The translations under genes were made by a program, and so were the position numbers. From Mycteria americana (taxonomy: Eukaryota; Chordata; Aves; Ciconiiformes; Ciconiidae), in assembly GCF_035582795.1 (NCBI RefSeq), contig NW_027445626.1:248001-312000 (forward strand): 64,000 nucleotides of DNA. The letters are read 5' to 3'. The notes under the pieces were generated by a model, which was not told the DNA's origin, searched no databases, and was given only the letters and a program-made list of their open reading frames with translations. Shown here piece after piece: positions 1 through 54,650 of the stretch (positions are counted from its first letter, which is position 1; each line of letters begins with the position of its first letter).

Positions 1-540
1 TATATATGGGGATATATTTGGAGATTATAAATGGGGAGGGGTATATATGGGGGTCTATATGGAGAGTGTATATATGGGGGTATATACAAAGAGTATATAT
101 ATGGGGGTGTATAAGGGGCATATATATGGGGAGGGGTGTAAATAGGGTTATAACTGAGGGGCTATAAAAAAGGGGGTATAAATGGGGGCTATAAATGGGG
201 AGGGCTATATAGGGGGTATCTATGGGGAGGGGTGTAAATGAGGTTGTAAAATGGTTAAAAAGAGGGGTATAAATCGGGGTATAAATGGGGGGTACATATG
301 GGGAAGGGTGTATATTGGGCGGGGTATAATGGGGAGCAGTGTATATGGGGGTATATACAGGGAGAGGTATATAGGGGGTATAAAGGGGGATATAAACTTG
401 GGGAGGGTAATACATGGTGGGTATATGGGTAGCATAAAGAGGGGGTATAAATTAGGGAGGTATAAATGGCGCTGATACATGCAAGGGCTATAAATGTGGG
501 AGCTATAAATGGGGGTACAAACAAGGGGGTACAAGTGGGG
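1..540. repeat. G-rich TATAAA/GGGG satellite, outer end of left arm
   Basis: Irregular tandem units of roughly 11-25 bases in which runs of 4-5 G alternate with TATAAAT, TATATAT or TATAGG. The strand is G-rich throughout and starts at the window edge, so the array may continue to the left. The complementary C-rich array lies at 53,890-54,650. No coding sense: open frames here are products of the repeat. Confidence 0.85.
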
Positions 541-838
541 GATACCCCACCCTACCTGGCTGGGGGCGTCACCCGAAGCAGACAGGGGCTGTCACAGTCA
601 CCGGGCCCAAAGTTTGATCCTGCTTTCCCGGGTCTTCTTGCTGACGGGGTTTTTCAGGCAGGGACAATTAAACCCCAGGGTGAAATACCGTACCACCCCC
701 AATGGTGGGATGGCCCGTGGTCCTCTGGGGTGGGGGGTCCTGGACAAACAGGGTACTGAGGTGGCCACCAGCACCCCCAAAATGTCTAGGGGAGCCAGGG
801 GGGTGGGGAAAATGATTGCTGCTCTTTGAGGGACACCA
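541..838. other. Arm sequence without recognised gene
   Basis: Unique-looking sequence between satellite and minisatellite. Its reverse complement is found at about 53,645-53,885, with more small differences than in the genes. No gene or known repeat seen. Confidence 0.5.
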
Positions 839-1085
839 AAATCTTGGGGTTTGAGGGACATCAAGGTCTTGGTGTTGGGGGTGGTCATTGATGGTCCTTG
901 ATGAACACCAAGATCTAGGGGTCTAGGGTTGGTCATCAATGGTCCTTGAGGGACACCAAGGTCTTGTGGTTTGGGGACAATCATCTCCAGTCCTTGGGCA
1001 ATGTCTAGGCCTTGGACTTTGGGGACAATCATGTCCAGTCCTTGCGGAACACTAAGGTTTTGGAGTTGCGGATGGTTGTCTCTGG
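839..1085. repeat. Minisatellite, about 60-65 base units
   Basis: About four degenerate copies of a unit built around gggacaccaaggtcttg followed by a G/T-rich stretch and a 'caatcat..ggtccttg' segment. The inverted counterpart, with a different copy arrangement, is at about 53,430-53,640. Confidence 0.7.
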
Positions 1086-1089
1086 CCTT

Positions 1090-1425
1090 TGATGTATCTC
1101 ATGTCATGTCTGAGTAGCTCATAGGCCTGGAGTAGGCCCATGGCATGTGTAGGTGCTTCTTCTAATGTCACTGCTGCCTGAGGAGCTGGGAGGGCAGGAG
1201 CAGGCCCATAGTTTCTGTAGGTGGTTTTGAGGTCATTGGTGCCTGAATGGCCGATAGGCCGGGAGCAGGCCAATATCAGAGGTAGATGCTATGACATCCT
1301 CTGTGGCTGAGTAGCAGATAGGCCAGGGGCTGTGCATGAGCTTGTGATGTCACTGCTGCCTGAGTAGCTGGTAGGCCAGGAGCTGGCACATAGCTTCTGT
1401 AGGTGCTTCTGATGTCACCAAAACA
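1090..1425. repeat. Minisatellite, about 75-80 base units
   Basis: Four or so copies of a unit containing 'gatgtcactgctgcctgag', 'agctggtaggccaggagc' and 'cttctgtaggtgcttc'. Mirrored at about 53,095-53,410 in the right arm. Confidence 0.7.
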
Positions 1426-2357
1426 ATATTTCGACCATGCCCAAATATGGCTTTTTGGAAGAAACATCAGGAGCAGAAGTCCATACACCGCACACACGTG
1501 TGACAGTGTAACGCATGCACACACAGTGCCAGCAGTAGGAGGGTGTGAGGTCACTGTCAGGATAACCCATGAGCACACAGCAGTGACAGTGGTGACATCA
1601 CCGATGGCAACCCATGGCTGTGGAGCTCGGTGCAGAGCAGCCGTGTGCTGTCACAAGGGCTTCACGGAGGAAGGAGCTGCCCGGCCCCGTGCCTGCGAGG
1701 CCGAAGGAGCAGCCCCTACAGCCCTGGCTGGAGCAGTCGGGGTGGGGGTGGCTCGGGGACCCCGCAGGGATGTGCCTGGGCACGGCGCCAGGAGGAAACC
1801 ACAGACTTCCTGCCTGGGCGCTGCGGGGGGAGCGTGGGGAGTGCTGCGAGGCCACGTGGGCTGTGGTTTGTGCACCTGCAGGCTGGAGCTCCCGATGCGC
1901 CCGCGGGGAATAACGGCCCCTCGGTGACACGCTGACAGTCAGGGATCTGTCTGAGCCTCTGGGCTGCACGTCTGCTGCCAGGGCAGGGACATGTCCCAGC
2001 TCCGGCTCCTGCGAGGGACCTTCCATGGGGCTCTCCAGGGAAGGAAGGGTGAGGCAGCACTCCTGGGACGGGGCTCTGGCCTGGGCTAAGGCCCTTTCCC
2101 AGCTGCTGCTCCCAGCACAGCGGGGTCTGTAGCAGGGACAGGGGCTGTTTCCTTCCCTTCCTGACACAGCCTCCGGCGCAGCCCCAGCCCTGTGCTTCCC
2201 ACGGCACGAGGGTGGCTGGACACTCACCTTGGGCTCTTGGGTGTGCCTGTCATAAGTGACACTCAGTGCTCCTGGTTGAGAAAGCAGGGTTGAGGGGGTG
2301 AAAAATCCATTTACCCCCACACAAGCAGCCCTGTCCTGTGACGGCCCCCCACCAAAG
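1426..2357. other. GC-rich 5' flank of receptor gene A
   Basis: GC-rich sequence with many CpG, upstream of the receptor gene and conserved in the right arm (about 52,155-53,090). An open frame of 256 codons runs on the minus strand here, but it has no recognisable domain and its counterpart in the right arm shifts frame. I see no supported gene. Confidence 0.5.
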
Positions 2358-2397
2358 TGACGTGACACCTGTAGCAGAGCCGTCTGTCATATATGGT
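2358..2397 (+). promoter_or_regulatory. Possible core promoter of gene A (CRE-like and TATA-like)
   Basis: A TGACGTGA motif (2358-2365, CRE-like) is followed by CATATATGG (2389-2397, TATA-like), about 235 bases before the start codon. Both motifs are kept at the mirror position in the right arm. Motif match only; no transcript evidence. Confidence 0.3.
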
Positions 2398-2626
2398 CAT
2401 GAATGGCGCTGGAGAAGTTCATTGGAGGGCCGGGCTGTGTCGGAGGGGAGATAGCTCCCGATAATGTCGAAAAAGGCCCTGCTGCTTTGATTGGCTCGTC
2501 CTGTAGCTGGGCTGGCATCTGCAGAGATATATTGCCCTGCTGTCGTCATTGTCCCCAGGAGTCCCCAGGAGCCGTGGCAGGGAGTGTGGCAGAGCAGGGA
2601 TGTGCTGGCAGGGCAGGAGGCTCAGG

Positions 2627-15430
<12,804 letters not shown>

Positions 15431-15531
15431 GCACCAGGGAAACATCTCCCTTTACCACGGGCAGCAGAAACCGCCTGCCGTTTCCTCTATTTTTATTCCC
15501 GCTTTTACACTGTGCGTCCATATTGGTTCTT

Positions 15532-15537
15532 ATTAAA
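15532..15537 (+). terminator. Polyadenylation signal ATTAAA, gene A
   Basis: ATTAAA about 100 bases after the stop codon, followed by a T/G-containing stretch. Conserved at the mirror site 39,155-39,160. Confidence 0.6.
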
Positions 15538-15969
15538 AGTCTCTGAGGGCTTTGACCCAGAGCTGGGGCTTGCCTGCCCAGGTGTTGGGTCACCTCCCTG
15601 AGGCTGATGAGGGGGAGCAGAGAACGATGACACAGTGGTAGGCAAGGGGCACATCTCAGGGACAGCAGGCTCGGGGTCAGGCTGTGGGGCTGCGAGAGCC
15701 CATGGTCCCTGGGGAATAATCCTGCTGCTCACCCCAAAACACCCCAGCCATCCCCAGGGGGGATCATGGCCCACGGATTACCTCCCACAATGGTGAGGAT
15801 GCAGCTCTGCTCCCCACTGCCCCAGCACAGGGTGCAGAGCCACTTTCTGGGACACACGGGCTGAGATTCCCTCTCCTCATGCTCTGCCAGGAGCCCAGTC
15901 TCCAGGGGCTGTTCCATGGGCTCCAGCCCACACCTGCCTGAGGCTGGGGAGTCAGGGCAAAATCAGCCC

Positions 15970-16041
15970 TGGAGATGCTGGGGATTGAACCCAGGACATC
16001 CCACATGCGAAGCAGGTGCTCTGCCACTGAGCTACATCCCC
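15970..16041 (-). tRNA. tRNA-Ala (anticodon CGC), left arm
   Basis: A 72-base cloverleaf on the minus strand. Acceptor GGGGATG pairs with CATCTCC (one G-U). Box A-like TAGCTCAGTGG, anticodon loop TTCGCAT, T stem CTGGG/CCCAG fully paired around TTCAATC, discriminator A. A run of four T follows within about 12 bases and can end Pol III transcription. Close to the vertebrate tRNA-Ala-CGC consensus. It looks functional and lies head-on to the receptor gene. Confidence 0.9.
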
Positions 16042-18040
16042 TTGACACCTGCCAGCAGGAGAGACACTCTCCTCCCGTGATGTGTCTATGACAAGCCCAG
16101 TCCTGTTGTCCCCTGCGTGCCCAGGGATCCTCTGCAGAAAACAGCACTTGAACCCTTCTGAGGTGGGCAAGCTGGGACTGCCTCTGTGCTGGGGCCTGAT
16201 CCTGGCACAGGGCTGCACTGCAGAGTGCTGCCCCTTCAACGCCTCTGCAGGGCAATGGGGCAGAAGGAGGCTCTTGCTGCAGGTGCTGCTCCCACGCTCT
16301 GGCCCACTGCGGGATGGGTCGATGGAGGAGAGAAAACCCCTTCCCCTGAGCCTCCTCTGCCACCCAGGGCAACAGCCCTCTGTGCCACATCTGTCCCCAA
16401 CTCCACAGCAGGAGCAGTGCAACAGGGTGAGGGAAATGCCCTGCCTGGGGTGAGGTGCCTGCAGGCTCCGATGGCATCCCAGGGCATGCTGTGGAGGGGA
16501 CGTGGTGGCAGAAATCTTATACCCCCTTCTCCAGGCACCAGGTCTCCCCCTGCAGCCCTCTGTTCCCCAGCATCCCTGGAGGTGACTTGAAGAGCAGGCT
16601 TCCATCTGCATGGGGTGAGCATGTGGGTTGGGCTCAGGGACCTTCCCATTCCTTCAGCACTGATGACTGTCCTGGCAGCAAAGCAGTGCCCTGGGACAGC
16701 CCTGGCTGGGGTCTCTGTGGCAGGGTGGGTGACTGTGTTCAGCTGGTACTCAAAGGCTGATGGTTTGACCACATGCAGGGATGGTGTCCTCATGGTGGCA
16801 CAGCTGGGACAATTGTGTTGCCCAATGCCATAGAGTTTTCCCTGCTGAGCCCCTGCCTGGCATGGGGGTTTGGGGGAATCAAAAGCAGACCACAGTGCCT
16901 GTGAACTTCTGGAGTGGTTGAGTGGAGTTAAGGGGATGGACTGCTCACCTCTTCTGCTTTGCACACATGACCCCAAAACCCATCCTCAGCAATGACTCTC
17001 CCATTCTTGCTCAAGAAAGGCGTAGAAGGACTCTTCTGGAGCAGTGATAATCCTGCAGGCATTACCCCTGCAGCCAAGCGTGTTCAAGCTCGTGCTCAAA
17101 GCTGACAAGACAGTAACTGTGCTTGGACAGACAGTCTCTCCCTCTCACCACCTCTCACTTGCGCTCAGTCACAACAAAAGGCAGACTTCTCTGCAGGTGC
17201 ATCCCTAAGGAGCCAGCTGTGAGGCAGCAGAACTGCACGGGGTTAGAACATGCACGTTGCTATGCGACTGTAGTCCAGCACGTGCCATTCTTTGGGCTGA
17301 CTGGGGAGAGGCTGAGACTGGAGACAGAGGGAGATGTGCGGGGTCACAGCTGTCACTGTGTTCCTGGGGGGCAAGCAGGGCTCTGTAGCAGCAAGAGGTT
17401 GCAAGAGGGGAGCCCAGCAGCTTGTTGGAGCTCATGAGCAGGTCTTTCTTCCTCTGTGCAGGGACTGATGGCTGTGAGGGGCTGCAGCTGCTCTAGCCAG
17501 TGCAGTCTGGTGGGTGAGTCTATTTGGGCACGGCTTTGCCAGCTGTCCTTGGCACATCAGAGGTCTCGCTGTGACAGACCTCTGGAGGGAGGATGCTGCC
17601 ATTCAGGCCTCAGCTCCAGGGAGTGGATCTCCCTGGGACTGGGGTCACAGTGGCCTCCCCCATGGGCAGTATGCTCTGGTCTGCAAGCTGAGGTCCAGGT
17701 GAAGGATGTGTGTGAGGAGGGGAGCAGTCTGTGCATCATCAAGACTGACAAAGAGGAGAGAGACAAGGTCTTTGCAGAGACCCCATAAAGGAAAGGTGCC
17801 AATTGCTGTGGAGCAGGGAAGGAGGGACAGATGGAGAGCACCCCAAAGAAGCACTGAATGGAGAGTCCTGTTGAGGGGAAGGCTGGGGACTTGTGCAGCA
17901 AGAGGAAGGCTCCTTCTAACCCACAGATCTGCATCTGCAGTGCAGGGGCAGTGCTCTGGCAAGAGGTGAAGGAGCAAGGAGGGCCAGGGTAGGCTGGAAG
18001 AAGCAGGCAGGCTCTGCAGAAAACTGAGCGAGGATACCAC
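16042..18040. other. Arm sequence without recognised gene
   Basis: Non-coding sequence between the two tRNA-like loci, well conserved in the right arm (about 36,406-38,412). No domain, splice-consistent frame or repeat family recognised. Confidence 0.5.
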
Positions 18041-18113
18041 TGTATCAGCCCAGGGCTGAACCAGGGACCTTTAGATGTTCAGTCTAATGCTCTGCCAGCT
18101 GAGCTACTTCAGC
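18041..18113 (-). pseudogene. tRNA-Phe(GAA)-like, probably a pseudogene
   Basis: The D arm, anticodon arm (loop CTGAACA, anticodon GAA) and variable region follow tRNA-Phe closely. The 3' acceptor strand (CTGATAC) does not pair with the 5' strand (GCTGAAG), and the T loop reads TTCAGCC. Box A is intact in this arm. Likely a decayed tRNA gene. Confidence 0.75.
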
Positions 18114-18429
18114 CCTGCCCCAGCAGCCCTTGTCCCAGTTCCATCCCTGCCAGGCCACAGGCTGACACACATGAGGAGCATTCCTTGGCGAGGGTCCCAG
18201 GGAAGAGCTGTTGCTGGCCCTGGGCAGAGGGACCTGTCCTCTCCCTGCCTCCATGGCCAGGTGGGCTCCAGATTTGGGTGGAGGCCAGCTTACACTGGGC
18301 ATGCCAAAATGTGTGTGGGACTTCAGTCCAAACGTGACAGTGGCAAAGCAGGTGGGCAGGCCAGGCACGTGTAACTGCAAAGGCTGAGGGTGGAAGAAGT
18401 GTGGGGCTGTTGGAAGACCTTACCTCCTT

Positions 18430-19295
18430 CCCCATGGAAGGCCTCCTCCCCACCCTATTTTCCCCAGCTGAACTTCACTCCTTTATTCCCAACTCTTCTA
18501 CCTCCTCCCCTCTGAGCAGCGCTAGGCCATGGGGAAGGGGGGTTGTGGTCAGTCCAGAACACTTCCTGCCTGCTGCTCCTTCCTTCTCACACTTTTCCCA
18601 TGGGGTCCCTCCTACAGGCTGCAGTCCTTCAAGATGAACCTGCTCCACTCTGGGCTCTCCACAGGCCACAGTTCTTTCAGGAATTACCCAACTTCTCCAG
18701 CATTGCGTCCTCCACGGACTGCAGGGCTTACCTTGTCCACCATGGTCTTCTCCATAGGCTGCAGGAAAATACCTGCTGTGCTGTGGTATTCTGCTTGGGC
18801 TGCAGGGGAATATCTGCTCTGGTGCCTGGACCACCGAGGGGGTGGTTCTCCTCCTTCTTCATTAACCATAGTGTTGCAGGGCTGTTTCTTACATGTTTTT
18901 TTTCCACTAACTCCTATTCCAGTCTGGCAATTGTGCCCCTTCTTAAATACATTTTCACACCAGTTCCACCAGCTTTGTTGCTGGGCTCAGTTTTGGCCAG
19001 CGGTGGGTCTATTTTGGAGCTGGCTGGACCCAGCCCTGTCTGGCATGGAGGCAGCCCTTGGTCTTCTCTCACAGAGGTCACACATGCAGCCTCCTCGCTA
19101 CCAAAACATGGTCATGGACACCAATGCACTGTGTAAATCTTTGCCTTGCTAAATGGTGTCCCCTGCTCTTCCCTCATCAAGAAATCCAACCTAGTTGCTG
19201 GGGAGGAAGAGAGAGCAAGAGAGAAGGCCTTGATGCTGTGAAAGCACTCTTCCGCAAATAGCTACAACACTGGTGTATTATAACACTGTGGTCAC
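18430..19295 (-). mobile_element. ERVL-type LTR fossil at the inner end of the left arm
   Basis: Matches, in reverse, the right-arm LTR at 35,078-36,010, with the short internal 'gcagccc..ggag' repeats usual in this avian LTR group. It is incomplete: the outer tip seen in the right copy is missing here, and the next element starts at 19,296. Shared by both arms, so older than the inverted duplication. Confidence 0.65.
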
Positions 19296-21424
19296 TGTCC
19301 TGGTTTTGGCTGGGATAGAGTTAATTTTCTTCTTGTGGGGGTGGTTACAGCAATGGAAGCAGAACAATTGGCAGCACAGAGGCAAACCCATCTGGGCTGC
19401 AGCATTGTGGCAAAATATTGCTGCCTGTGTAGAGAACCTGGTGGTAAATGTACGTCACGTAGATGCTCACGTACCCAAGAGTCGGGCCACTGAGGAACAT
19501 CAAAACAACCAGCAGGTGGATCAGGCTGCTAAGACTGAAGTGGCTCAGGTGGATCTGGACTGGCAACATAAGGGTGAATTATTTATAGCTCGGTGGGCCC
19601 ATGACACCTCAGGCCATCAAGGAAGAGATGCAACATATAGATGGGCTCACGATTGAGGGGTGGGCTTGACCATGGACACTATTGCATGGGTCATCCATGA
19701 ATGTGAAACATGCACTGCAATTAAACAATCCAAGCTGTTAAAGCCTCTGTGGTATGGAGGGCGATGGCTGAAATATAAATATGGGGAGGCCTGGCAGATC
19801 GATTATATCACACTCCCACAAACCCACCAAGTGCTTACAATGGTGGAAGCAACCACCAGATGGCTGGAAACATATGCTGTGCCCCATGCCACCACCCGGA
19901 ACACCATCCTGGGCCTTGAAACGCAAGTCCTATGGTGACATGGCACCCCAGAAAGAATTGAGACAGAGAACGGGACTCATTTTTGAAACAACCTCATAGA
20001 CACCTGGGCCAAAGAGCACGGCATTGAGTGGGTATATCACATCCCCTATCATGCACCAGCCTCCGGGAAAATCAAACAATACAATGGACTGTTAAAGACA
20101 ACACTGTGAGCAATGGGTGGTGGGACATTCAAACATTGGGATGCACATTTAGCAAAGGCCACGTCATTAGTTAATACTAGGGGATCTGCCAGTCGAGCTG
20201 GCCCTGCCCTATCGGAACTTCTACACACTGTTGAAGGGGATAAGGTCCCTGTAGTGCACATAAAAAACATGCTGGGGAAGACAGTCTGGGTTACCCCTGC
20301 CTCGGGCAAAGGCAAGCCCATTCATGGGATTGCTTTTGCTCAAGGACCCGGGGGCACTTGGTGGGTAATGCCAAAGTATGGGGAAGTCCAATGTATACCT
20401 CAAGGGGATTTGATTTTGGGTGAGAATAGCCAATGAACTAAATGGTTTGATGTCACTTGCTATATAATACTGTATGTCATCACTTTTATGGTGACTATAC
20501 ACCATATCAATGGTATTTCAGTAAGGATCACCCAGATTAATGAAGAATGAGCTTTGATGAAACCAAGCAAAGTGCAGCAGTGATGGAACGAGAACTGGCT
20601 TCAGCATGCAACAATGCAACACCACGCACCATCTCTCCTGCCCTGAAAGACTGTTATGACAGATAGAGCCCAAAGTCATGGACTAAATGAACTCAATGGA
20701 CATTGTAGAGGGATGGCCCATAGACCAAGGGAATGATAGCTGTGTGTATATATCTAGAGACAGGGAAAGTGGTGGTGATTAATTGTATTAGAAAGGGTAG
20801 AACCTGGGCATGACATAGATGGTATAGAATAAGGGGTGAACACTGTCCTGGTTTCGGCTGGGATAGAGTTAATTTGCTTCCTAGTAGCTGGTGTAGTGTT
20901 GTGTTTTGGATTTTAGTATGAGAATAATATTGATAACACGCTGATGTTTTGGCTGTTGCTAAGTGGTGTTTATGCCAATCAAGGACTTTTCAGCTTCCCG
21001 TGCTCTGCCAGGTGCAAAAGAAGTTGGGAGGGGACACAGCCAGGAGAGTTGATCCAAACTGACCAAAGGGCTTTTCCATACCATATGATGTCATGCTCAG
21101 TATATAAACTGGGGTGAGTTGGCTGGGGAGCAGGGGTCACTGCTTGGGGACTGGCTGGGCTTCGGTCGGCAGGTGGTGAGCAGTTGTATGAGGTTTTTTT
21201 TCCTTGGGTTTTGTTCCTCTCTTTCTCTCTTATTGTTTTCCTTCTCATTACAATTTATTATTACTATTTAGTTTTTGTTGTTCAAATTATTAAACTGTTC
21301 TTATCTCAGCTCATGAGAATTCTTACTTTTGCTCTTCCGATTCTCTCCCCCATCCCACCAGGGAGGGTAGGGTGAACGAGAGTCTGTGAGGTACTTAATT
21401 GCCAACTGGGGCTAAACCACAATA
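19296..21424 (+). mobile_element. ERVL-like endogenous retrovirus remnant
   Basis: Parts: a very short 5' LTR start (TGTCCTGG..., about 45 bases), a piece of pol including integrase-region sequence (about 19,560-20,440), a short non-coding stretch, and a 3' LTR of about 580 bases at 20,844-21,424 with a TATATAAA-like box. The internal region is largely deleted and the pol part is broken in several places. An old fossil, not a working element. Confidence 0.8.
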
Positions 21425-21830
21425 AAGGCTTGACTAAAGTCCAAGTAGACAACATGCACAGCCTTCCCCTCATCCACTGAGCGGGTCGTCTTGTCATAGA
21501 AGGAGATCAGGTTAGCCAAGCAGGACCTGCCTTTCATAAACCCACACTGACTGGGCCTGCTCACCTGCTAAACTCCAGTCAACTGGCACCTTCCCGCTTA
21601 GCCAGGACTGCTGAGAAAGGATTGAAAGATGCTTGGTGGGGACTTCTGCCAGCTCCCTCGGTACTCTTGGGTGGATCCCATTCAGCCCCATAGACTTGCG
21701 TGTGTCTCAGTGGTGTAGCAGATCACTAACCATTTCCCCTTGGATTATGGGTGCAACAGTGGGAGATTTGTCTGCTCATTCCCTCCATGGTCTCTTCAGT
21801 GATGGCTCTCAGTGGGGACCACTAACACCC
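21425..21830 (-). mobile_element. CR1 LINE fragment (ORF2, reverse transcriptase region)
   Basis: The minus strand carries degenerate CR1 ORF2 sequence around the 'SFYDKTTRSVDEGKA' and 'LDFSKAFDT' region. It adjoins the LTR at its left edge, so the LTR may have inserted next to or into it. Confidence 0.7.
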
Positions 21831-23398
21831 TCAGAAACTTGGAGGTTTGCTGCTGACTTTTACTTCTCTAGAGGCCAGTTCATTCCACTTTCAGTATCTG
21901 CAGTTCAGGAACTTGGCACCACAGGGCTCATGAACATACAAAATGCCCTAAGAAGCCAAGTCTCTGGACATAATTTTCTTAATTCCTCAGTTCATATGTG
22001 GTTAATTAGAGAGATTTCAGAAGTGAAAAGATTTCAATACTCAGAAACAATAAGAAAGGATTTCTTTTTCTTCCCCTCTGTAAAGAGGCTGTTAGCTATA
22101 TGATCCCATTCTGGGAAATTCCAAATTCACTCAGACCTCTTGCAAACATCTGTCACACCTAAGTGCCAAACTCATCTCTTCTGTTGCACAAATGCTAAGC
22201 CATCAAATCAAATCACATCAAATCAAATCAAATCAAATCAATCAGTATGTTGAAAGCTATTCTTTCTGCTTTTCAGTACTTGCCTTTTTGGACGAGGAAT
22301 CCCTGAGAATCTGTTCATTTCAAAAGAAGTAATATCAAGGATCTCTTTTGCAATGCCCTGCTTTCTTCCACAGCTTCTTGCTCTCTGCTTCTTCAGGAAA
22401 GGGGGAGGGGGTGGAATAGGGACCAAGTATAACTCGTCTTCTTTAGTACTCTAAATAATGACTGAAATTCATTATGATTCCACACAGTCTGGCACACAGA
22501 CTCTCTCATCTGACATCCATCTGCACTGAAATGCCCTTGTTTCCAAACAGTTGCTCATTGCTATTACTATCCAATGTCCTGACCTAAATGGAGAGCAAGA
22601 GAAGAGTGTCTGGAAGAGGTTTGCAACCTTTCTTTGGCATGCCAGACATAGGTTGGGAGGAACCAGCCTCTAGCGTTTTGTCTTGTCTCCCTTGACTACA
22701 GAGGGAGCCTCGGGAAAACCAGTTCTCACAGGCACCTGCAGTGAAGTAGATGACAGTCACTATTCAAGTCTCAAACCACTGATTTATTAAGCTATTATTT
22801 TTTAAATCAGAATCCACATCTAACAGAAGGCAGCACAAGAAAAAAATATGCAAGAAAGACTGGTGTGTTTCCCTTCATCTTTACATTTGTTTTCAGACAT
22901 AGAAAGGAGCAGAGCAGATGACTCCCAGAGTAGGAGGATTCAAAATGCAAGGGGAGGAGAGGGAGGGGAGGAGATGGCGGGTTTGAAGCAGTGAAAGAAA
23001 GCTTCTCCACAGACTGTGTTGTCCCCTCAGGCTCTGTCCCAGGGCAGAATGGGTAGCACTTCCACAAGGAGTAAAATGGGAAGTTCAGTATAGGGCAGCG
23101 CTCCATGTTTGCCTTGACATTGTAGCTTGGGGCTCAGGCTAGTCTTAGATCCCAAGTGCCTGGCTTGTTCTTTGCCTCTAGTCCGGTGTAGGGCAACCTC
23201 TGCACTGGGTTTGTGTGGAAAACTTGCTGAGATTAAACCCCTGGCTGTATTTGAGCAAAAGCTCAAGCTCAGTCACCTACAGCGGTAGGACTGTAGTGAA
23301 TCAGTGAATCAGAGGTGACAGTCCCAGTTTCCATTTTCTGGGTCCATTCAAAGACTCAAAGGGTTCAAAGACTCTTACTCTGTTGGGTGACACCTAAA
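21831..23398. other. Intergenic; nothing recognised
   Basis: AT-richer than the arms. No gene, domain or clear repeat, apart from a small ATCAA microsatellite at about 22,205-22,243. Confidence 0.5.
22203..22243. repeat. (AATCA)n microsatellite
   Basis: Seven to eight imperfect pentanucleotide units. Confidence 0.85.
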
Positions 23399-24235
23399 TC
23401 ATGTACAATTGTTCTTCTCCTCAATGCACACTCCTAGGGGAACCTGCAAATTTGCAGGCAGCTTACAACAAAGCAGCTTCTCTTCAGGCCCCACATCATC
23501 AAACGTGCAGCTAGCATATGCAATAGTGAGTGAAGAGATATAGGACATGCAGGTGAAGGATATCCAGGTGAAGAAGGCCTTATGGTGCCTTTGCACAGAG
23601 GGTGTCCTCAGGATGGTGCATCTAATGTAGGCATAAACCACAGTAGTCAGCATGAAGGAGCTCAGCAATGCAGCAGAGGAGACAGCAACGCTCATGTTTC
23701 ATAGTAGCTGGTACCCATGCGGGCTGCTCTCAGCAAAGGGATGACGCCGCAGAAGCAGCAGTGTCTCCATTGGGCTCCGAGGGTCTAATGGCATACAAGA
23801 TGGTGGGGCTGAGTATGGCTAGAGATGCCATTCCCCAACAGCTAAACATGTGCATGGAGCACAACCAGGAGTTCGTAAGGACAGAGTAGTGTGAGTGGTT
23901 GCAAATGGCCCTGCAGCAATCGAAACACGTCACAACACATAGGTTAAACTCAGCTGTGCGCAGGAAGACAGAGAAGAAGGTCTGGGACTTGTAAGCAGCC
24001 GCAGAGATATCTTTATCTCCAAGCGAGGCTGACAAACATGTTAGGGGGAATGACCAAAGTGAACCAAACATCCAAGAAGGAGAAGGTGCTGAGGAAGGGA
24101 TACCTTGAGGTGTGGTACTAGTGGTGGAACCAAATGATGGCAATGGTGACTGCATTCTGCATGACAGCGAGCAGATCAATCACCAGTGGCAGAGTGAAAA
24201 GGAGGATTTTCAACTCTTGAATGACTGAAAAGGCC
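23399..24235 (-). pseudogene. Olfactory receptor pseudogene, heavily decayed
   Basis: Seven-helix olfactory receptor pieces are found in order but in different frames. A helix 1-2 part (LKILLFTLPLVIDLL, then PFLSTFSFLDVWFT) lies near 24,060-24,220, a helix 3 part (FLRTAEFNLCVVTCFDCCRAIC, an eroded form of the usual MAYDRYxAIC) near 23,870-24,000, and a helix 5-6 part (TVVYAYIRCTILRTPSVQRHHKAF) near 23,540-23,660. At least two frameshifts and several stops. A CR1 piece abuts its 5' end. Confidence 0.8.
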
Positions 24236-24239
24236 TTCA

Positions 24240-24650
24240 GGAAAAACGTTCTTGCTGTGAAAAATCGTTCTGGCTTGCACCAGATATAGTGTGGCCAGCA
24301 GGACTAGGGAAGTGATCATCATTTTGTACTTGGCGCGGGTGAGTCCACACTTTGAATACTGTGTTCGCTTTTGGGCCCCTCACTACAAGAAAGACATTGA
24401 GGTGCTGGAGCATGTCCAAAGAAGAGCAACGAAGCTAGTGAAGGATCTAGAGCACAAGCGTGACGACGAGCGTCTGAGGGAACTGGGGTTCCTTAGTCTG
24501 GAGAAAAGGAGGCTGAGGGGAGACCTTCTCGCTCTCTACAGCTACCAGAAGGCAGGTTGTAGCAAGGTAGGTCTCATTCTCTTCTCCCAAGTAACAAGTG
24601 ACAGGAGAAGAGGAAATGGCCTCAAGTTGTGCCTCAATGTCTTCCTTGTA
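24240..24650 (+). mobile_element. CR1 LINE fragment (ORF2 3' part)
   Basis: Open for over 100 codons and typical of CR1 ORF2 C-terminal sequence ([64 protein letters not shown]). Truncated at both ends. Confidence 0.9.
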
Positions 24651-25997: not shown

Positions 25998-26016
25998 GCA
26001 TGGGCATGGGCATGGA

Positions 26017-32760: not shown

Positions 32761-32762
32761 AG

Positions 32763-33035
32763 AAGGCACGTGGAGGAGGAGGAGGTGAGGTAGGAGGCAA
32801 GAGCAGAAATCTGGAGGAGGTGTAGGAGGAGGCACCAGGAGACAATAAGACGAAAGAGGAGGCAAGAAGAGGAGGAAGCAACAGGATGCAACAGTAGGAG
32901 GAAAAAGGAAGAGGAGGCAAGAGGGGAAAAAAGGGAGCTCAGGAGGCAACAGGAGGCAAAAAAAGGAGCAGGAGGAGGAGGAGAATGCACCAAGAGGCAA
33001 AAGGAGGCCGCAGGAGGAGGAGGAGGCAACAGGAG
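32763..33035. repeat. Purine-rich (GGA/GCA) tract, short side of a strand-switching repeat
   Basis: The plus strand is almost all G and A with scattered C/T, in units such as ggaggaggagg and ggcaacagg. It is the reverse complement in composition and motif of the tract that follows at 33,036. Confidence 0.9.
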
Positions 33036-34640
33036 TCGCCTCTTGTTTCCTTATCCTCCTTTTGCCTCCTGTTGCCTCCTCCTCCTCCTCTTGCCTCATA
33101 TTGTCTCCTCCTTCTGGTACCTCCTGTTGCTTCCTCCTGCTCCTCCTCCTCCTCCTCCTCAACCCCCTGTGCCTCCTCTTCCTCCTTCTGTTGCCTTCCC
33201 TTGCCTCCTCTTGCCTTCTTTTCCGCATCCTGTTCCTATTGCCTTTTGTTGCCCCAATGTTGCATCCTAGGCCTCTTCCTCCTTTTGGCTCCTCATGCCT
33301 CCTGTTGCCTCCTCCTCTCCTCCTCTCCTCCTCTTCCTCCTCCTTTTCTTCCTCCTCCACCTCCTCCTCCTCCCCGTTCTCTTATCCTCCTCTTCCTTTT
33401 CCCCTTCCTCCTCTTACGCTTCCTTCTCTTACTGTTGCCTCCTCTTGCCTCTTTTTGCTTCCTCCTCCTTCTCTTCCTCCTCTTGTGGCCTCCTGTTGCC
33501 CCACCATCCTATGCCCCTACTGCCTCCTCCTTCTCCTGCTCTTCTTGCCTTTTCCTCCTCATCATCCATTTCCTCTTGCCTCCTCTTTCCTCCCCTTCTT
33601 CCTCCTCCTCTTCCCTGCTCTGCCTCCTTTTACCTCCCTCTCTTTCTCCTGATGGTGCATCCTCTGGCCTCCAGCAGACTCCTTTTCCTCCTCTTGCTCT
33701 TACCTCTTGTTCCTCATTGTTGCCTCCTCCTCTCCTCCACCTCCTTCTCCTCCACATTCTCCTCTTCATCCTGTTGTCTCCTCTTGCCACTTACTTTGAC
33801 CTTTCCTAATTCTCCTCCTCCTCCTCCTCTTCTTCCTCCTCTGCCTAGTACCTTCTGTGTCTTCCTCCTCCACCTTTTGCCTCCTGTTCCTTCTTCCTTC
33901 TTTTCCTCCTCTTCTTGCTTCCTTCTCTTGCCTCTACTTGCCTCCTCCTTTTGTTGCCTCCTCCTGCTGTGTCCTCCTGTTACCACCTGTTGCCTCCTCC
34001 TTCCCTTCCTTCTCCTCTTCCTATTGCCTCCTCCCACTCCTTTTGCCTTCTGTTGCCTCCTCTTCCTCCTCTTGCCTCCTATTTCCATTTGTTGCCTCCT
34101 CCTCTCCTGCTCCTGGTGCCTCCTCTTGCCTCTTCCTCCTCCTCCTCCTCTTGTCCTCTCCTCTTCTCTCCATCTCCTTCTCCTCCTGCTTTTCCCTCCT
34201 CTTTTGTCCTCTTGCCACCTCCTCTTCCTCCTGTTGCCTTCTGTTTCCTTTTCCTCCTCCTGTTGCATCTGGGGACCTTCTCTTTTTCCTCCTTGTCCTC
34301 TTGCCTCAAGTGCCCGCCTCTTGCCTCCTTTTGCTTCCACCTCCTCCTCTTAACTCCATTGGCCTCCTGTTGCGTCTTCCTCCTCCTCCTCTTTCCTCCT
34401 CTTGTGTCCTTTACATCCTGTTATGTCCATCTCCTTTTCCCTCCTCTTGCCTCCTTTTGCCCGCTCTTGCCTCTTATTCCCTCATTCTCCATTTGTGTCC
34501 CATTGCCTCCTCTTCCTGTTGACTCCTCCTCCTCCTTTGCTTGTGGCCTCCTCTTGCCTCCTCCTCTTTTTAATCCTGTTGCTTCTGTTGCATCCTTGTC
34601 CTCCTCTTGCCTCCTCCTTCTTCTGCTGCCTCCTCTTGCC
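33036..34640. repeat. Pyrimidine-rich (CCT/TTGCCTCCT) tract, 1.6 kb
   Basis: The plus strand is a C/T-rich imperfect tandem of cctcctcctc, ttgcctcctgttgcc and similar. Long open frames on both strands (up to 352 codons of Leu/Ser/Pro) are artefacts of the repeat. With the preceding purine tract it forms a potential hairpin whose turn is near 33,036. Confidence 0.9.
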
Positions 34641-34654
34641 TATTTCTTCTTTTG

Positions 34655-35077
34655 GAAGAGGCTGAGGTACTGAATGCCTTCTTCACCTCCTCTTTTACTA
34701 CCAAGACCAGCCTTCAGGAATACCAAGTGCCAGAGATGAGGGGGCAAGTCTGGAGCCAGGCAGACATAGCCCTGCTGGAAGAGGATCAGGTCAGGGAATA
34801 CTTATGCAAACTGGGCATACAGAAGTCCACGGGCCCTGATGGGATACACCCATGAGTGCTGAGGGAGCTGGCAGATGTCATTGCGAGGACACTCGCAAGA
34901 ATCTTTTACCGTTCATTGAGATGGGGATGTGCCCGAAGACTGGAAGAAATCAAATGTCACTGCTATTTTCAAGGAGGGCAAGAAGGAGGACCTGGGGAAC
35001 AAGAGATGAGTCAGCCTCTCCTCGAGCCCTGGGAAGGTGATAGAGCAGCTAATCCTGGGAAATATTTCCAGGTACAT
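34655..35077 (+). mobile_element. CR1 LINE fragment (start of reverse transcriptase domain)
   Basis: Encodes typical CR1 ORF2 sequence (EAEVLNAFFTSSFTTKTSLQ, EEDQVREYLCKLGIQKSTGP, VLRELADVIARTLARIF), with one stop where Arg usually follows GIHP and a frameshift further on. It is cut off at 35,077, where an LTR begins, so the LTR inserted into this LINE. Confidence 0.9.
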
Positions 35078-36010
35078 TGTGCTGGTTTTGGCTGGGATGG
35101 AGTTAATTTTCTGCATAGCAGCCCGTATGGTGCCATGTTTGGGATTTGCGACCAACGCAGTGTTTCTAATACACCAGTGTTGTAGCTATTTGCGGAAGAG
35201 TGCTTTCACAGCATCAAGGCCTTCTCTCTTGCTCTCTCTTCCTCCCCAGCAACTAGGCTGGATCTCTTGATGAGGGAGGACCAGGGGACGTCATTTAGCA
35301 AGGCAAAGTTTTACACAGTGCGTTGGTGTCCATGTCCAGGTTTTGGTAGCGAGGAGGCTGCACGTGTGACCTGTGAGAGAAGACCAAGGGCTGCCTCCAT
35401 GCCAGACAGGGCTGGGTCCAGCCAGCTCCAAAATAGAGCCACTGCTGGCCAAAACTGAGCCCAGCAACAAAGCTGGTGGAACGGGTGTGAAAATGTATTT
35501 AAGAAGGGGCACAAGTGCCAGACTGGAATAGGAGTTAGGGGGAAAACAAAGTGTGAGAAACAGCCCTGCAAACACCATGGTCAGTGAAGAAGGAGGAGAA
35601 CCACCCTGTCGGTGGTCCAGGCACCAGAGCAGATATTCCCCTGCAGCCCAAGCAGAATACCACAGCACAGCAGGTATTTTCCTGCAGCCTCTGGAGAAGA
35701 CCATGGTGGACAATGTAAGCCCTGCAGTCCATGGAGGACGCAATGCTGGAGAATTTGGGTAATTCCTGAAAGAACTGTGGCCTGTGGAGAGCCCAGAGTG
35801 GAGCAGGTTCATCTTGAAGGACTGTAGCCTGTAGGAGGGACCCCATGGGAAAAGAGTGAGAAGGAAGGAGCAGCAGGCAGGAAGTGTTCTGGACTGACCA
35901 CAACCCCCATTCCCCATGGCCTAGTGCTGCTCAGAGGGGAGGAGGTAGAAGAGTTGGGAATAAAGGAGTGAAGCTGAGCTGGGGAAAAAAGGGTGGGGAG
36001 GAGGCCTTCC
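35078..36010 (+). mobile_element. ERVL-type LTR fossil at the inner end of the right arm
   Basis: Starts TGTGCTGGTTTTGGCTGGGA, the usual start of this avian LTR group, and has the characteristic run of short 'gtggcctgtggagag..gagcagg' repeats. Its 3' end is not clear. From about 35,165 inward to the gene it is shared with the left arm; its first 85 bases or so have no counterpart there. Confidence 0.7.
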
Positions 36011-36332
36011 ATGGGGAAGGAGATAAGGTCTTCCAACAGCCCCACACTTCTTCCACCCTCAGCCTTTGCAGTTACACGTGCCTGGCCAGCCCACCTGCTT
36101 TGCCACTGTCACGTTTGGACTGAAGTCCCACACACATTTTGGCATGCCCAGTGTAAGCTGGCCTCCACCCAAATCTGGAGCCCACCTGACCATGGAGGCA
36201 GGGAGAGGACAGGTCCCTCTGCCCAGGGCCAGCAACAGCTCTTCCCTGGGACCCTCCCCAAGGAATGCTCCTCGTGTGTGTCAGCCTGTGGCCTGGCAGG
36301 GGTGGAACTGGGACAAGGGCTGCTGGGGCAGG

Positions 36333-36405
36333 TCTGAAGTACCTCAGCTGGCAGAGCATTAGACTGAACATCTAAAGGTCCCTAGTTCAGCGCTGGGCTG
36401 ATACA
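36333..36405 (+). pseudogene. tRNA-Phe(GAA)-like pseudogene, right arm
   Basis: Mirror copy of 18,041-18,113, more decayed: the box A-like TAGCTC is TACCTC, and the T stem has a further mismatch. Anticodon GAA is kept. Confidence 0.75.
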
Positions 36406-38412
36406 GTGCTATCCTCGCTCAGTTTTTTGCAGAGCCTGCCTGCTTCTTCCAGCCTACCCTGGCCCTCCTTGCTCCTTCACCTCTTGCCAGAGCACTGCCC
36501 CTGCACGGTAGCTGGAGATCTGTGGGTTAGAAGGAGCCTTCCTCTTGCTCCACAAGTCCCCAGCCTTCCCCTCAACAGGACTCTCCATTCAGTGCTTCTT
36601 TGGGGTGCTCTCCATCTGTCCCTCCTTCCATGCTCCACAGCAATTGGCACCTTTGCTTTATGGGGTTTCTGCAAAGACCTTGTCTCTCTCCTCTTTGTCA
36701 TTCTTGATGGTGCACAGACTGCTCCCCTCCTCACACACATCCTTCACCTGGACCTCAGCTTGCAGACCAGAGCATACTGCCCATGGGGGAGGCCACTGTC
36801 CCCCCAGTCCCAGGGAGAGGCACTCCCTGGAGCTGAGGCCTGAATGGCAGCATCCTCCCTCCAGAGGTCTGTCACAGCGAGACCTCTGATGTGCCAAGGA
36901 CAGCTGGCAAAGCCGTGCCCAAATAGACTCACCCACCAGACTGCACTGGCTAGACCAGCTGCAGCCCCTCACAGCCATCAGTCCCTGCACAGAGGAAGAA
37001 AGACCTGCTCATGAGCTCCAACAAGCTGCTGGGCTCCCCTCCTGCAACCTCTTGCTGCTGCAGAACCCTGCTCGCCCCCCAGGAACACAGTGACAGCTGT
37101 GACCCAGCACATCTCCCTCTGTCTCCAGTCTCAGCCTCTCCCCAGTCAGCCCAAGGAATGGCACGTGCTGGACTACAGTCGCACAGCAACGTGCATGTTC
37201 TAACCCCGTGCAGTTCTGCTACGTCACAGCTGGCTCCTTAGGGATGCACCTGCAGAGGAGTTTGGCTTTTGTTGTGACTGAGCGCAAGTGAGAGGTGGTG
37301 AGAGGGAGAGACTGTCTGTCCAAGCACAGTTACTGTCTTGTCAGCTTTGAGCATGAGCTTGAACATGCTTGGCCGCAGGGGTAGTGCCTGCAGGATTATC
37401 ACTGCTCCAGAAGAGTCCTTCTACGCCTTTCTTGAGCAAGAACGGGAGAGTCATTGCTGAGGATGGGTTTTGGGGTCATGTGTGCAAAGCAGAAGAGGTG
37501 AGCAGTCCATCCCCTTAACTCCACTCAACCACTCCAGAAATTCACAGGCACTGTGGTCTGCTTTTGAAACTCCCAAACCCTCTCTGCCAGTCAGGGGCTC
37601 AGCAGGGAAAAAATGTATGGTATGGCATTGGGCAACACAATTGTCCCAGCTGTGCCACCATGAGGACACCATCCCTGCATGTGGTCAAACCATCAGCCTT
37701 TGAGTTACCAGCTGAACACACTCACCCACCCTGCCACAGAGACCCCAGCCAGGGCTGTCCCAGGGCACTGCTTTGCTGCCAGGACAGTCATCAGCGCTGA
37801 AGGAATGGGAAGGTCCCTGAGCCCAACCCCCATGCCCAGCCCCATGGAGATGGAAGCCTGCTCTTCAAGTCACCTCCAGAGATGCTGGGGAACAGAGGGC
37901 TGCAGGGGGAGGCCTGGTGCCTGGAGGAGGGATATAAGATTTCTGCCACCACGTCCCCTCCACGGCGTGCCCTAGGATGCCATCGGAGCCTGCAGGCACC
38001 TCACCCCAGGCAGGGCATTTCCCTCACCCTGTTGCACTGCTCCTGCTGTGGAGTTGGGGACAGATGTGGCACAGAGGGGTGTTGCCCTGGGTGGCAGAGG
38101 AGGCTCAGGGGAAGGGGTTTTCTCCTCTCCATCGACCCATCCCACAGTGGGCCAGAGCGTGGGAGCAGCACCTGCAGCAAGAGCCTCCTTCTGCCCCATT
38201 GCCCTGCCGAGGCGTTGAAGGGGCAGCACTGTGCAGTGCAGCTCTGTGCCAGGATCAGGCCCCAGCACAGAGGCAGTCCCAGCTTGCCCATCTCAGACGG
38301 GTTCAAGTGCTGTTTTCTGCAGAGAGTCCCTGGGCACGCAGGAGAAAACAGGACTGTGCTTGTCATAGACGCATCACGGGAGGAGAGTGTCTCTCCTGCT
38401 GGCAGGTGTCAA
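36406..38412. other. Arm sequence without recognised gene
   Basis: Mirror of 16,042-18,040. Nothing recognised beyond the arm similarity. Confidence 0.5.
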
Positions 38413-38484
38413 GGGGATGTAGCTCAGTGGCAGAGCGCCTGCTTCGCATGTGGGAGGTCCTGGGTTCAATCCCCTGCATCTCCA
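38413..38484 (+). tRNA. tRNA-Ala (anticodon CGC), right arm
   Basis: Mirror copy of the left tRNA-Ala. Acceptor, D and anticodon arms are kept. The T stem is CTGGG/CCCTG, leaving one T-T mismatch that the left copy does not have. A TTTT run follows the gene. Probably still transcribable; it may be slightly less stable. Confidence 0.85.
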
Positions 38485-38724
38485 GGGCTGCTTTTGCCCT
38501 GAATCCCCAGCCTCAGGCAGGTGCAGGCTGGAGCCCATGGAACAGCCCCTGGAGACTGGGCTCCTGGCAGAGCATGAGGAGAGGGAATCTCAGCCCGTGT
38601 GTCCCAGAAAGTGGCTCTGCACCCTGTGCTGGGGCAGTGGGGAGCAGAGCTGCATCCTCACCATTGTGGGAGGTAATCCGTGGGCCATGATCCCCCCTGG
38701 GGATGGCTGGGGTGTTCAGGGGAC

Positions 38725-38965
38725 TCGGCCACCTTAGGGCTCACTTCTGTGGGGCCACAGCCCAGGGCTTACCCTGACATGGCAGCTCTGGCATGGCCTC
38801 TGCACTGGGGGACCAGCGTGGCCCAGGCAGGGCCTGGGACAAAGAGCAGCTGGAAACCCGAGGGTGAGGAAATGGATGTTGCCGCTGGGGTGCACCACAG
38901 GACCTACCAGAGAGCCATTTTGACTAGAAACTGCCCGTGGCCAGCAGCATGGAAATGTCTCTCTC
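38725..38965. other. About 240-base segment present only in the right arm
   Basis: The mirror offset between arms changes by 238 bases between the receptor stop codon and the tRNA-Ala. The extra sequence lies here; the left arm jumps from 'ggggaataatcctgctgctc' straight to 'accccaaaacacccc'. No repeat ends seen. Confidence 0.65.
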
Positions 38966-39154
38966 AGCAGGAACATTCCCCAGGGACCATGGGCTCTCGC
39001 AGCCCCACAGCCTGACCCCGAGCCTGCTGTCCCTGAGATGTGCTCCTTGCCTACCACTGTGTCATCGTTCTCTGCTCCCCCTCATCAGCCTCAGGGAGGT
39101 GACCCAACACCTGGGCAGGCAAGCCCCAGCTCTGGGTCAAAGCCCTCAGAGACT

Positions 39155-39160
39155 TTTAAT
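39155..39160 (-). terminator. Polyadenylation signal ATTAAA, gene B
   Basis: ATTAAA on the minus strand about 100 bases after the gene B stop codon; mirror of 15,532-15,537. Confidence 0.6.
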
Positions 39161-39261
39161 AAGAACCAATATGGACGCACAGTGTAAAAGCGGGAATAAA
39201 AATAGAGGAAACTGCAGGCGGTTTCTGCTGCCCGTGCTACAGGGAGATGTTTCCCTGGTGC

Positions 39262-51884
<12,623 letters not shown>

Positions 51885-52114
51885 CCTGAGCCTCCTGCCC
51901 TGCCAGCACATCCCTGCTCTGCCACACTCCCTGCCACGGCTCCTGGGGACTCCTGGGGACAATGACGACAGCAGGGCAATATATCTCTGCAGATGCCAGC
52001 CCAGCTACAGGACGAGCCAATCAAAGCAGCAGGGCCTTTTTCGACATTATCGGGAGCTATCTCCCCTCCGACACAGCCCGGCCCTCCAATGAACTTCTCC
52101 AGCGCCATTCATGA

Positions 52115-52153
52115 CCATATATGAGAGACGGCTCTGCTACAGGTGTCACGTCA
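52115..52153 (-). promoter_or_regulatory. Possible core promoter of gene B
   Basis: Mirror of 2358-2397: a TATA-like CATATATGG at 52,115-52,123 and TGACGTGA just upstream (about 52,147-52,154). Conserved motifs only. Confidence 0.3.
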
Positions 52154-52154
52154 C

Positions 52155-53090
52155 CGTGGTGGGGGGCCGTCACAGGACAGGGCTGCTTGTGTGGGGGTAA
52201 ATGGATTTTTCACCCCCTCAATCCTGCTTTCTCAACCAGGAGCACTGAGCATCTCCTATGCCAGGCACAGCCAAGAGCCCAAGGTGAGAGTGTCCAGCCA
52301 CCCTCGTGCCGTGGGAAGCACAGGGCTGGGGCTGCGCCGGAGGCTGTGTCAGGAAGGGAAGGACACAGCCCCTGTCCCTGCTACAGACGCCGCTGTGCTG
52401 GGAGCAGCAGCTGGGAAAGGGCCTTAGCCCAGGCCAGAGCCCCGTCCCAGGAGTGCTGGCTCACCCTTCCTTCCCTGGAGAGCCCCATGGAAGGTCCCTC
52501 GCAGGAGCCGGAGCTGGGACATGTCCCTGCCCTGGCAGCAGACGTGCAGCCCAGAGGCTCAGACAGATCCCTGACTGTCAGCGTGTCACCGAGGGGCCGT
52601 TATTCCCCGCGGGCGCATCGGGAGCTCCAGCCTGCAGGTGCACAAACCACAGCCCACGTGGCCTCGCAGCACTCCCCACGCTCCCCCCGCAGCGCCCAGG
52701 CAGGAAGTCTGTGGTTTCCTCCTGGCGCCGTGCCCAGGCACATCCCTGCGGGGTCCCCGAGCCACCCCCACCCCGACTGCTCCAGCCAGGGCTGCAGGGG
52801 CTGCTCCTTCGGCCTCGCAGGCACGGGGCTGGGCATCTCCCGTCCTCCATGAAGCCCTTGTGACAGCACACGGCCGCTCTGCACCGAGCCCCACAGCCAT
52901 GGGGTGCCATCGGTGACGTGACCACGGCCACTGCTGTGTGCTCAGGGTTATCCTGACAGTGACCTCACACCCTCCTACTGCTGGCACTGTGTGTGCATGC
53001 GTTACAGTGTCACACGTGTGTGCAGTGTATGGACTTCTGCTGATGATGGTTCTTCCAAAAAGCCATATTTGGGCGTGGTCGAAATATTGT
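52155..53090. other. GC-rich 5' flank of gene B
   Basis: Mirror of 1426-2357. CpG-rich; no supported gene. Confidence 0.5.
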
Positions 53091-53094
53091 TTTG

Positions 53095-53410
53095 GTGACA
53101 TCAGAAGCACCTACAGAAACTATGTGCCAGCTCCTGGCCTACCAGCTACTCAGGCAGCAGTGACATCACAAGCTCATGCACAGCCCCTGGCCTATCTGCT
53201 ACTCAGCCACAGAGGATGTCATAGCATCTACCTCTGATATTGGCCTGCTCCCGGCCTATCGGCCATTCAGGCACCAATGACTTCAAAACCACCTACAGAA
53301 GCTATGGGCCTGCTCCTGCCCTACCAGCTCCTCAGGCAGCAGTGGCATTAGAAGAAGAACCTACACATGCCATGGGCCTACTCCAGGCCTATGAGCTACT
53401 CAGACATGAC
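53095..53410. repeat. Minisatellite, about 75-80 base units (right arm)
   Basis: Inverted copy of the array at 1090-1425. Confidence 0.7.
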
Positions 53411-53429
53411 ATGAGACACATGAAAGACC

Positions 53430-53640
53430 AGAGACAACCATCCCCAATCCCCAATCCTTGGTGTCCCTCAAGGACCAGAGAACCCCAAGACCTTGGTGTC
53501 CCTCAAACCCCAAACCACAAGACCTTGGTGTCCTTTAGGGACCATCATTGACTACCCCAAACCCCAAGACCTTGATGTCCCTCCAACCTCAAGACCTTGC
53601 TGTCCCTCAAAGACCAGAGATGATCTTCCCCATTCCCCCC
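53430..53640. repeat. Minisatellite, about 60 base units (right arm)
   Basis: Inverted, rearranged copy of the array at 839-1085; units contain 'aagaccttggtgtccctcaa'. Confidence 0.7.
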
Positions 53641-53889
53641 ATTCCCAACATGTTGGAGGGGTGCTGGTGGCCTACCTCAGCACTTCGTTTCTGCACTACC
53701 CCCACCAGAGAGGACCACAGGCTGTCCCACTGCTGGGGGGCTTAATTCACCCTGGGCTTTAATTGCCCCCACCTGAAAAACCCCAGCAGCAAGAAGGCCT
53801 GTGGCCGCAAGATCAAATGTTGGGCCTGGCAGCTCCGTCAGCCCCCCCCGCAGTGGGGGGACCTCCCCAGCCAGGTAGGGTGGGGTGTC

Positions 53890-54650
53890 CCCCTCTTCTA
53901 CCCCCATGTTTGTACCCCCATTTATAGCCCCCCTATTTATTGCCCCCCATTTTTAGCCCCCCTATTTATTGCCCCTCCTTTTTAGCCCCTCATTTATCAT
54001 CCCCAATTATAACCCCCTCATTTATCACCCTGATTTATACCCCTCAAATTATAGCCCCTGTTTCTTCTCCCCTTATATACCCCCTGTGTATAGCCACCAT
54101 CTATTACCCTCCCCATATATATCCTCCTATATACCCCCATATATACCTCTCCCTGTATATTGTCTGTATACCTCCATATACACCCCTCCCCATATACACC
54201 CCTCCCCATATGGACCACTTCCCATAAATACCTCCCCCATTTATAACCCCGATTTACAACCCCCTTTTTAACCCCCCCATTTAAACCCCCATTTACACCC
54301 CTCCCCATAGATCCCTCCTATGTACCCCTCCCCGTAAATACCACCCATTTATACCCCACTTTTTAACCCCCCATTTATTACCCTATTTACAACCATCCCC
54401 ATATATACCCACTGTATATACCCACATTTATATACGCCCCTATATAACACCTTATAGATATAGTCTCAATATATACCCGTGTATATAACCCCATATACAT
54501 ATACTTTCCATATATACCCCCTATATATACCCCCCTATATATACTCTCCATATATAAACCCTTATAGTTTCCACATATCCCCCTCCCCATATATACGCCT
54601 CCCTTTACATAGCCCCTATATATACCCCCATTTACCCCCAGTCCTGTCCC
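53890..54650. repeat. C-rich complement of the TATAAA/GGGG satellite, outer end of right arm
   Basis: Units such as CCCCCATTTATAGCCCC, CCCCTCCCCATATATACC and similar. It runs about 220 bases further than the part matching 1-540, so the left array probably also continues past the window edge. Confidence 0.85.

Follow-up and report, generated by a model that had tools for sequence, protein, structure and literature searches.

How did two long receptor genes come to stand as mirror images of one another, and what keeps both of them intact? The question is raised by a 64,000-nucleotide stretch of the genome of the stork Mycteria americana (contig NW_027445626.1, positions 248,001 to 312,000; hereafter the window), in which a large inverted repeat carries two receptor genes, A and B, each with nine SRCR domains. 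We consider it very likely that the pair arose by segmental inverted duplication within a cluster of WC1/CD163c-alpha (SCART)-like genes, probably the equivalent of the olfactory receptor (OR)/SRCR region of the avian major histocompatibility complex (MHC) microchromosome, and that purifying selection and local exchange have acted on the copies. The repeat is made up as follows.

1-19288, forward strand: left arm of the inverted repeat, from self-BLAST and the arm alignment, its outer end lying beyond the window
19289-35157, no strand: unlike spacer of 15,869 bp between the arms, from self-BLAST
35158-54432, continuing to ~54530, reverse strand: right arm of the inverted repeat, from self-BLAST and the arm alignment
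15970-16041, reverse strand: tRNA-Ala (CGC) of the left arm
38413-38484, forward strand: tRNA-Ala (CGC) of the right arm

Three self-BLAST matches, each with E=0.0, join the arms: 1-7179 with 54432-47349 (89.9% identity), 8439-15727 with 46319-38965 (94.2%) and 15732-19288 with 38722-35158 (96.0%). Their mirrored coordinates sum to 54,433 to 54,758, so that the large inverted repeat of a preliminary description of this DNA, with mirror sums of about 54,430-54,750 around some 16 kb of unlike spacer, is borne out almost to the base. In the arm alignment, identity ranges from 63.9% to 99.6% among 500-base bins up to base 19,000, being poorest at the minisatellite end (1-1000, ~79%) and in the block 7001-8500, and gaps of 354, 238 and 81 bp separate the arms. 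One exception to plain mirroring is the interval 7180-8440 of arm A, which differs from its mirror partner at 340 of 888 aligned sites because the gene B intron at this place is of another type. A mirrored pair of minisatellites lies at 42-1064 and 53442-54566; beyond ~54432 the matches of the right arm become sparser, inside the minisatellite. The suggestion that tRNAs and satellites lie in mirror order holds for the tRNA-Ala (CGC) pair, one in each arm, and for the minisatellite pair, although the satellite ends are among the least alike parts of the arms. Arm A also has a weak tRNA-like match (18041-18113, reverse strand, 32.5 bits) with no counterpart reported in arm B.

The two genes and their landmark exons are the following.

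2627-15430, forward strand: gene A, 17 exons, 1243 residues, nine SRCR domains, one transmembrane segment and a cytoplasmic tail
39262-51884, reverse strand: gene B, 17 exons, 1243 residues, architecture as in gene A
11920-11982, forward strand: inter-domain exon of gene A, 63 nt, between SRCR 8 and 9 (mirror in gene B, 42806-42744)
13130-13267, forward strand: transmembrane exon of gene A, the segment read by eye from the sequence (mirror in gene B, 41592-41455)

The gene models were built by hand from reading frames, phases and splice signals, and the genes are known here from genomic sequence alone. They are convergent, both reading towards the spacer. All 17 exons are equal in length between A and B, all 16 introns in each gene have a GT donor and an AG acceptor, neither model has an internal stop, a frameshift or a lost splice signal, and the proteins are identical at 1189 of 1243 residues. 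The exon count and gene coordinates given earlier are reproduced exactly, and the equal exons and splice sites, the open state of both genes and the nine-domain receptor architecture described with them are likewise recovered. A 16-exon model was dropped in favour of the 17-exon one when bird relatives revealed the inter-domain exon; the variant omitting these 63 nt was used for the Pfam count and for the ratio of replacement to silent divergence (dN/dS).

Each gene begins with a signal-peptide exon and continues with nine SRCR domains in nine exons, the inter-domain exon, and six exons past the last SRCR domain for stalk, transmembrane segment and tail. The joint of exon 1 with exon 2 is supported by two bird proteins, Theristicus P0097 and Ciconia maguari P0100, in which a like signal peptide is joined to the first SRCR domain; the public models of Mycteria P0009 and some others instead start upstream, in frame with exon 2. 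Pfam identifies nine PF00530 stretches in each 16-exon protein, and one exon per domain is a mark of group B SRCR. Both tails carry the tyrosine motifs YEEI, YSPV and two YDDA, which we take to resemble those of WC1. Among the 28 distinct sequences matched in solved structures, the best relatives are CD163 (M130) chains. Eight of the nine domain exons encode eight cysteines and one encodes six, identically in A and B, in agreement with the 6-8 cysteines given for group B SRCR domains of the CD163 family (PMC2906472; here and below, published work is cited from excerpts of the sources).

Single-exon domains, cysteine count, inter-domain exon, transmembrane segment and tyrosine-motif tail are thus all found in A and B as in WC1/CD163c-alpha (SCART)-like receptors, and the excerpts on avian genes of this kind describe the same combination of several group B SRCR domains, transmembrane segment and tyrosine-motif tail in a multigene family. 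An inter-domain exon has been reported for bovine CD163A, CD163c-alpha and WC1 (PMC2906472). In chicken, where gamma-delta T cells are abundant and the receptor set of the WC1/CD163-like kind is expanded, these SRCR genes run from CD163_1 to CD163_18 (Herzig 2010, PMC2906472), and six WC1.1-like genes appear in the scavenger receptor nomenclature (PMC12032555). Chicken CD163_3 has nine domains in the order a-b-c-a-b-c-x-e-d', and CD163_1 and CD163_8 have an N-terminal a followed by a c-n-d-e-d' cassette (PMC2906472), whereas A and B, read by eye, consist of two a-b modules followed by five domains and, unlike the chicken genes, are mirror images of each other.

The closest listed matches by identity are bird proteins labelled WC1.1-like or M130-like, and those of storks come first: the gene A protein shares 91.7% of 1042 aligned positions with Mycteria americana P0009 and 91.4% of 1016 with Ciconia boyciana P0015, the corresponding values for its 16-exon version being 91 and 90%. 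A search with the stalk, transmembrane and tail part gave 166 proteins at E<=0.001 among 7986 candidates scored, the best 120 of which were listed, and a first tree was built from A, B and 27 of 120 earlier matches; a search with region 445-900 was uninformative, the matches listed being mostly DMBT1-like and other repeat-rich proteins. A second tree of 19 rows holds A, B and 17 of 267 proteins. Both trees agree on the stork kinship of A and B. In the second, the grouping of A and B with Mycteria P0009 has a support of 100/99, and this clade is joined by Ciconia boyciana P0015 at 100/100, while three further Mycteria and two C. maguari proteins make up a second clade, suggesting that the receptor family was probably multigene already before storks diversified.

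In the well-aligned part of the arms, chosen by hand as 1000-7100 and 8652-19288, 776 of 16,661 sites differ (4.7%) and 15,885 are equal, an identity of 95.3%. Between the 16-exon coding sequences of A and B, silent change exceeds replacement change (dS 0.058, dN 0.022); because dN/dS is 0.38, both copies look to have been kept under ordinary purifying selection. Silent divergence falls along the genes, from 0.086 in exons 2-5 (23.5 silent differences) to 0.054 in exons 6-10 (20) and 0.031 in the exons past the last SRCR domain (6), all on the 16-exon model and from small counts.

Divergence is also patchy. Differences between the arms have a dispersion of 5.87 against a shuffle mean of 0.95, a value matched by 0/2000 shuffles, and the arms agree without a break for up to 496 bp, the maximum among the same 2000 shuffles being 303.

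2387-2882, no strand: tract of 496 bp identical between the arms, covering the upstream region, exon 1 and the start of intron 1

The clustering persists for noncoding sites alone (dispersion 6.48, equalled in 0/1000 shuffles), for introns alone (6.72, 0/1000) and for flanks alone (2.45, 0/1000), where the longest run of 335 was likewise reached in 0/1000 shuffles (shuffle maximum 317). Low-divergence blocks of 300 sites lie at 1935-2234, 2535-2834, 3135-3434 and 14925-15224. Inside the gene, divergence is high, at 10-13%, in six blocks. Because divergence is patchy, local exchange between the copies and with other modules is likely, conversion being in our view a better account than rate variation, and the identical tract at 2387-2882 is likely a patch of recent conversion or else a region of strong constraint.

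The clearest sign of exchange between modules would be the intron of the second a-b module of gene B, in the part of the genes described by the following features.

7180-8440, forward strand: module-2 intron of gene A, unlike its mirror partner in gene B
45758-50440, reverse strand: internal direct repeat of gene B, with copies at 45758-47685 and 48510-50440 that are 92.8% identical

Through this direct repeat, the gene B module-2 intron is of the module-1 type, as seen in the identities of B1 with B2 (92.9%), A1 with B2 (92.2%) and A1 with B1 (93.0%), while the gene A module-2 intron is 73.5-73.9% identical to the others over the whole segment and about 56-67% in the middle windows. We infer that gene B was the copy that changed and that gene A kept the older state. 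Arm A has degenerate SRCR pieces at 4031-4192 and 8348-8467, and arm B has one at 50304-50474; those in the intron after exon 2 of A (4031-4192) and of B (50304-50474) are probably partial domains left by internal duplication.

We therefore propose a model in which a segment of about 19 kb, made up of one receptor gene, its tRNA and the satellites beside it, would have been copied in reverse orientation at a locus that is probably the counterpart of the OR/SRCR stretch of the avian MHC microchromosome. Each copy would supply a useful surface receptor and so be kept intact by purifying selection. The arms would since have drifted by ~3.5% in the flanks and 6.4% in introns, with local exchange. 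Homogenisation or strong conservation would have affected short tracts, namely exon 1 with the sequence upstream of it and some of the tail region, and in gene B one intron would have been replaced by that of the neighbouring domain module. The predicted protein would be a type I membrane receptor, with SRCR domains that bind microbial or self ligands and, if expressed, tyrosine motifs that would signal as in WC1; to our knowledge, the ligands of the chicken WC1/CD163-like receptors are not established. At an assumed avian neutral rate of ~2e-9 per site per year, the 3.5% of the flanks would correspond to ~9 million years and a divergence of 6% to ~15, both ages being uncertain owing to conversion.

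Several observations weigh against this model. Introns are more diverged (478 of 7482 sites, 6.4%) than flanks (188 of 5447, 3.5%; p 1e-13), a pattern not expected from simple drift after a single duplication. Some of the patchiness could stem from unequal mutation rate or constraint; in introns alone, the longest run without a difference, 189, was reached in 1/1000 shuffles. Moreover, at the 54 sites that differ between A and B, P0009 agrees with A at 23, with B at 19 and with neither at 5 (gap at 7), and Ciconia P0015 agrees with A at 26, with B at 16 and with neither at 7 (gap at 5); on these counts neither A nor B is a clear orthologue of either protein. The branching among A, B and P0009 has a support of 83 in the first tree, and B groups with P0009 at 82/57 in the second, so that a duplication specific to this bird is unsupported.

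An extension of the duplication model gives the mirror layout itself a role as a device for diversity, in which exchange of short tracts between the two copies would hold back divergence of the upstream region, the signal peptide and the signalling tail, and the N-terminal modules that bind ligands would grow apart through swaps with neighbouring modules or other cluster members. The fall of dS along the genes, the blocks of low and high divergence and the swapped module-2 intron point in this direction; nevertheless, we regard the idea as unlikely. The possibility that two haplotypes of one gene were assembled end to end in opposite orientation arises in a repeat-rich region, where such errors are common. 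Yet arm divergence exceeds the usual allelic difference, and the divergence of 4.7%, the gaps found in one arm only and the different intron type of one copy make an allelic or assembly artefact very unlikely, as does the separate 15.9 kb spacer.

The preliminary description had likened the repeat to the large palindromes of sex chromosomes that keep gene pairs alive. Under this view, conversion from arm to arm would actively preserve the pair, and the 496 bp run, longer than any seen in the shuffles, speaks in favour of it. Mammalian sex-chromosome palindromes resemble the stork repeat in being inverted repeats with gene pairs, but their arms are described as homogenised to >99% identity (PMC8981503), whereas here the mean is 95.3% and the introns are 6.4% diverged. 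We accordingly reject this model for the arms as a whole and give it very little credence as the force behind the pair: of the earlier interpretation, the large inverted repeat and its two intact immune-type genes of nine SRCR domains each stand, and preservation by a palindrome is unsupported, since segmental inverted duplication with exchange and purifying selection suffices. Least probable is a juxtaposition by rearrangement of two older paralogues kept alike by selection only, which would fit the weak grouping of B with Mycteria P0009 apart from A (82/57) and a split that may predate the divergence from P0009, because the noncoding flanks, 96.5% identical, and the tRNA are collinear, and the segment must therefore have been copied as a whole.

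Support for placing the duplication in an OR/SRCR region comes from its neighbours. OR domains at 29772-30686 and 61716-62519 lie in the window together with the SRCR genes, while no marker of the nucleolus organizer region or of MHC-Y was seen within these 64 kb. OR and SRCR genes occur together on chicken chromosome 16 (PMC4988538; PMC8813856), where excerpts describe SRCR genes whose greatest similarity is to WC1/CD163 beside OR genes (Miller and Taylor 2016, PMC4988538), some of the latter of the OR14J1 family (PMC4988538); a difference is that the OR copies of the window appear broken. The reading frame in the spacer (29772-30686, forward strand, 304 residues; Pfam 7tm_4, 1.4e-31) stops near the expected last transmembrane segment and may for this reason be a pseudogene. 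The copy in the right flank (61479-62519, reverse strand), OR14-like by eye, is probably a pseudogene, with a frame at 61716-62519 that hits a stop and a stretch at 61479-61715 that resembles its continuation. A weak 7tm match at 23730-24179 (reverse strand), below the Pfam cut-off, is probably an old OR remnant. In another bird, Calonectris borealis, one public gene model (P0223) combines Pfam domains of the SRCR and OR types, an indication that the two kinds of gene adjoin one another in that species as well.

The spacer also contains traces of mobile elements. A 16-base motif, which we presume to be the start of the long terminal repeat (LTR) of a bird endogenous retrovirus, occurs without mismatch at just two places in the window (19301-19316 and 35083-35098, both forward strand), both in the spacer just inside the inner arm ends, and as a lead it is tempting to speculate that LTR-type elements may have helped to set the arm breakpoints. 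Separately, retroviral RNase H-like sequence lies near 19.4 kb, scored by Pfam at 28.1 bits against a cut-off of 25.8. Two frames, 24261-24668 and 34856-35185, appear CR1-like by eye, with no Pfam match. At 32667-34654, ~2 kb of AGG-rich and then CCT-rich sequence meets in a polypurine/polypyrimidine junction near 33035, where unusual DNA structures are possible; Rfam microRNA matches at 32.9-33.1 kb were discarded as low-complexity sequence under the gathering scores.

Large inverted duplications of immune genes in birds are not new in kind, because one has been published for chicken MHC-Y, where inverted sequences of ~40 kb include a second copy that is adjacent and reversed (PMC9635633). 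MHC-Y neighbours the OR/SRCR region in chicken. From the excerpts of that report, both cases are big inverted duplications of immune genes amid abundant transposable elements, probably autosomal in the stork as in chicken, and they differ in that the MHC-Y genes are YLEC, MHCY2B and ZNFY rather than SRCR genes. No published inverted SRCR pair in birds was found in literature judged by titles, counts and the starts of abstracts, one query having joined inverted duplication, scavenger receptors and birds, and the stork pair thus appears to be a new example of an arrangement already known. The two receptors, intact, WC1/SCART-like and from a bird other than chicken, form a clean pair that can be dated and has diverged enough for exchange tracts to be mapped. 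The pair also suggests that large inverted duplication, as published for chicken MHC-Y, shapes SRCR genes in another bird order.

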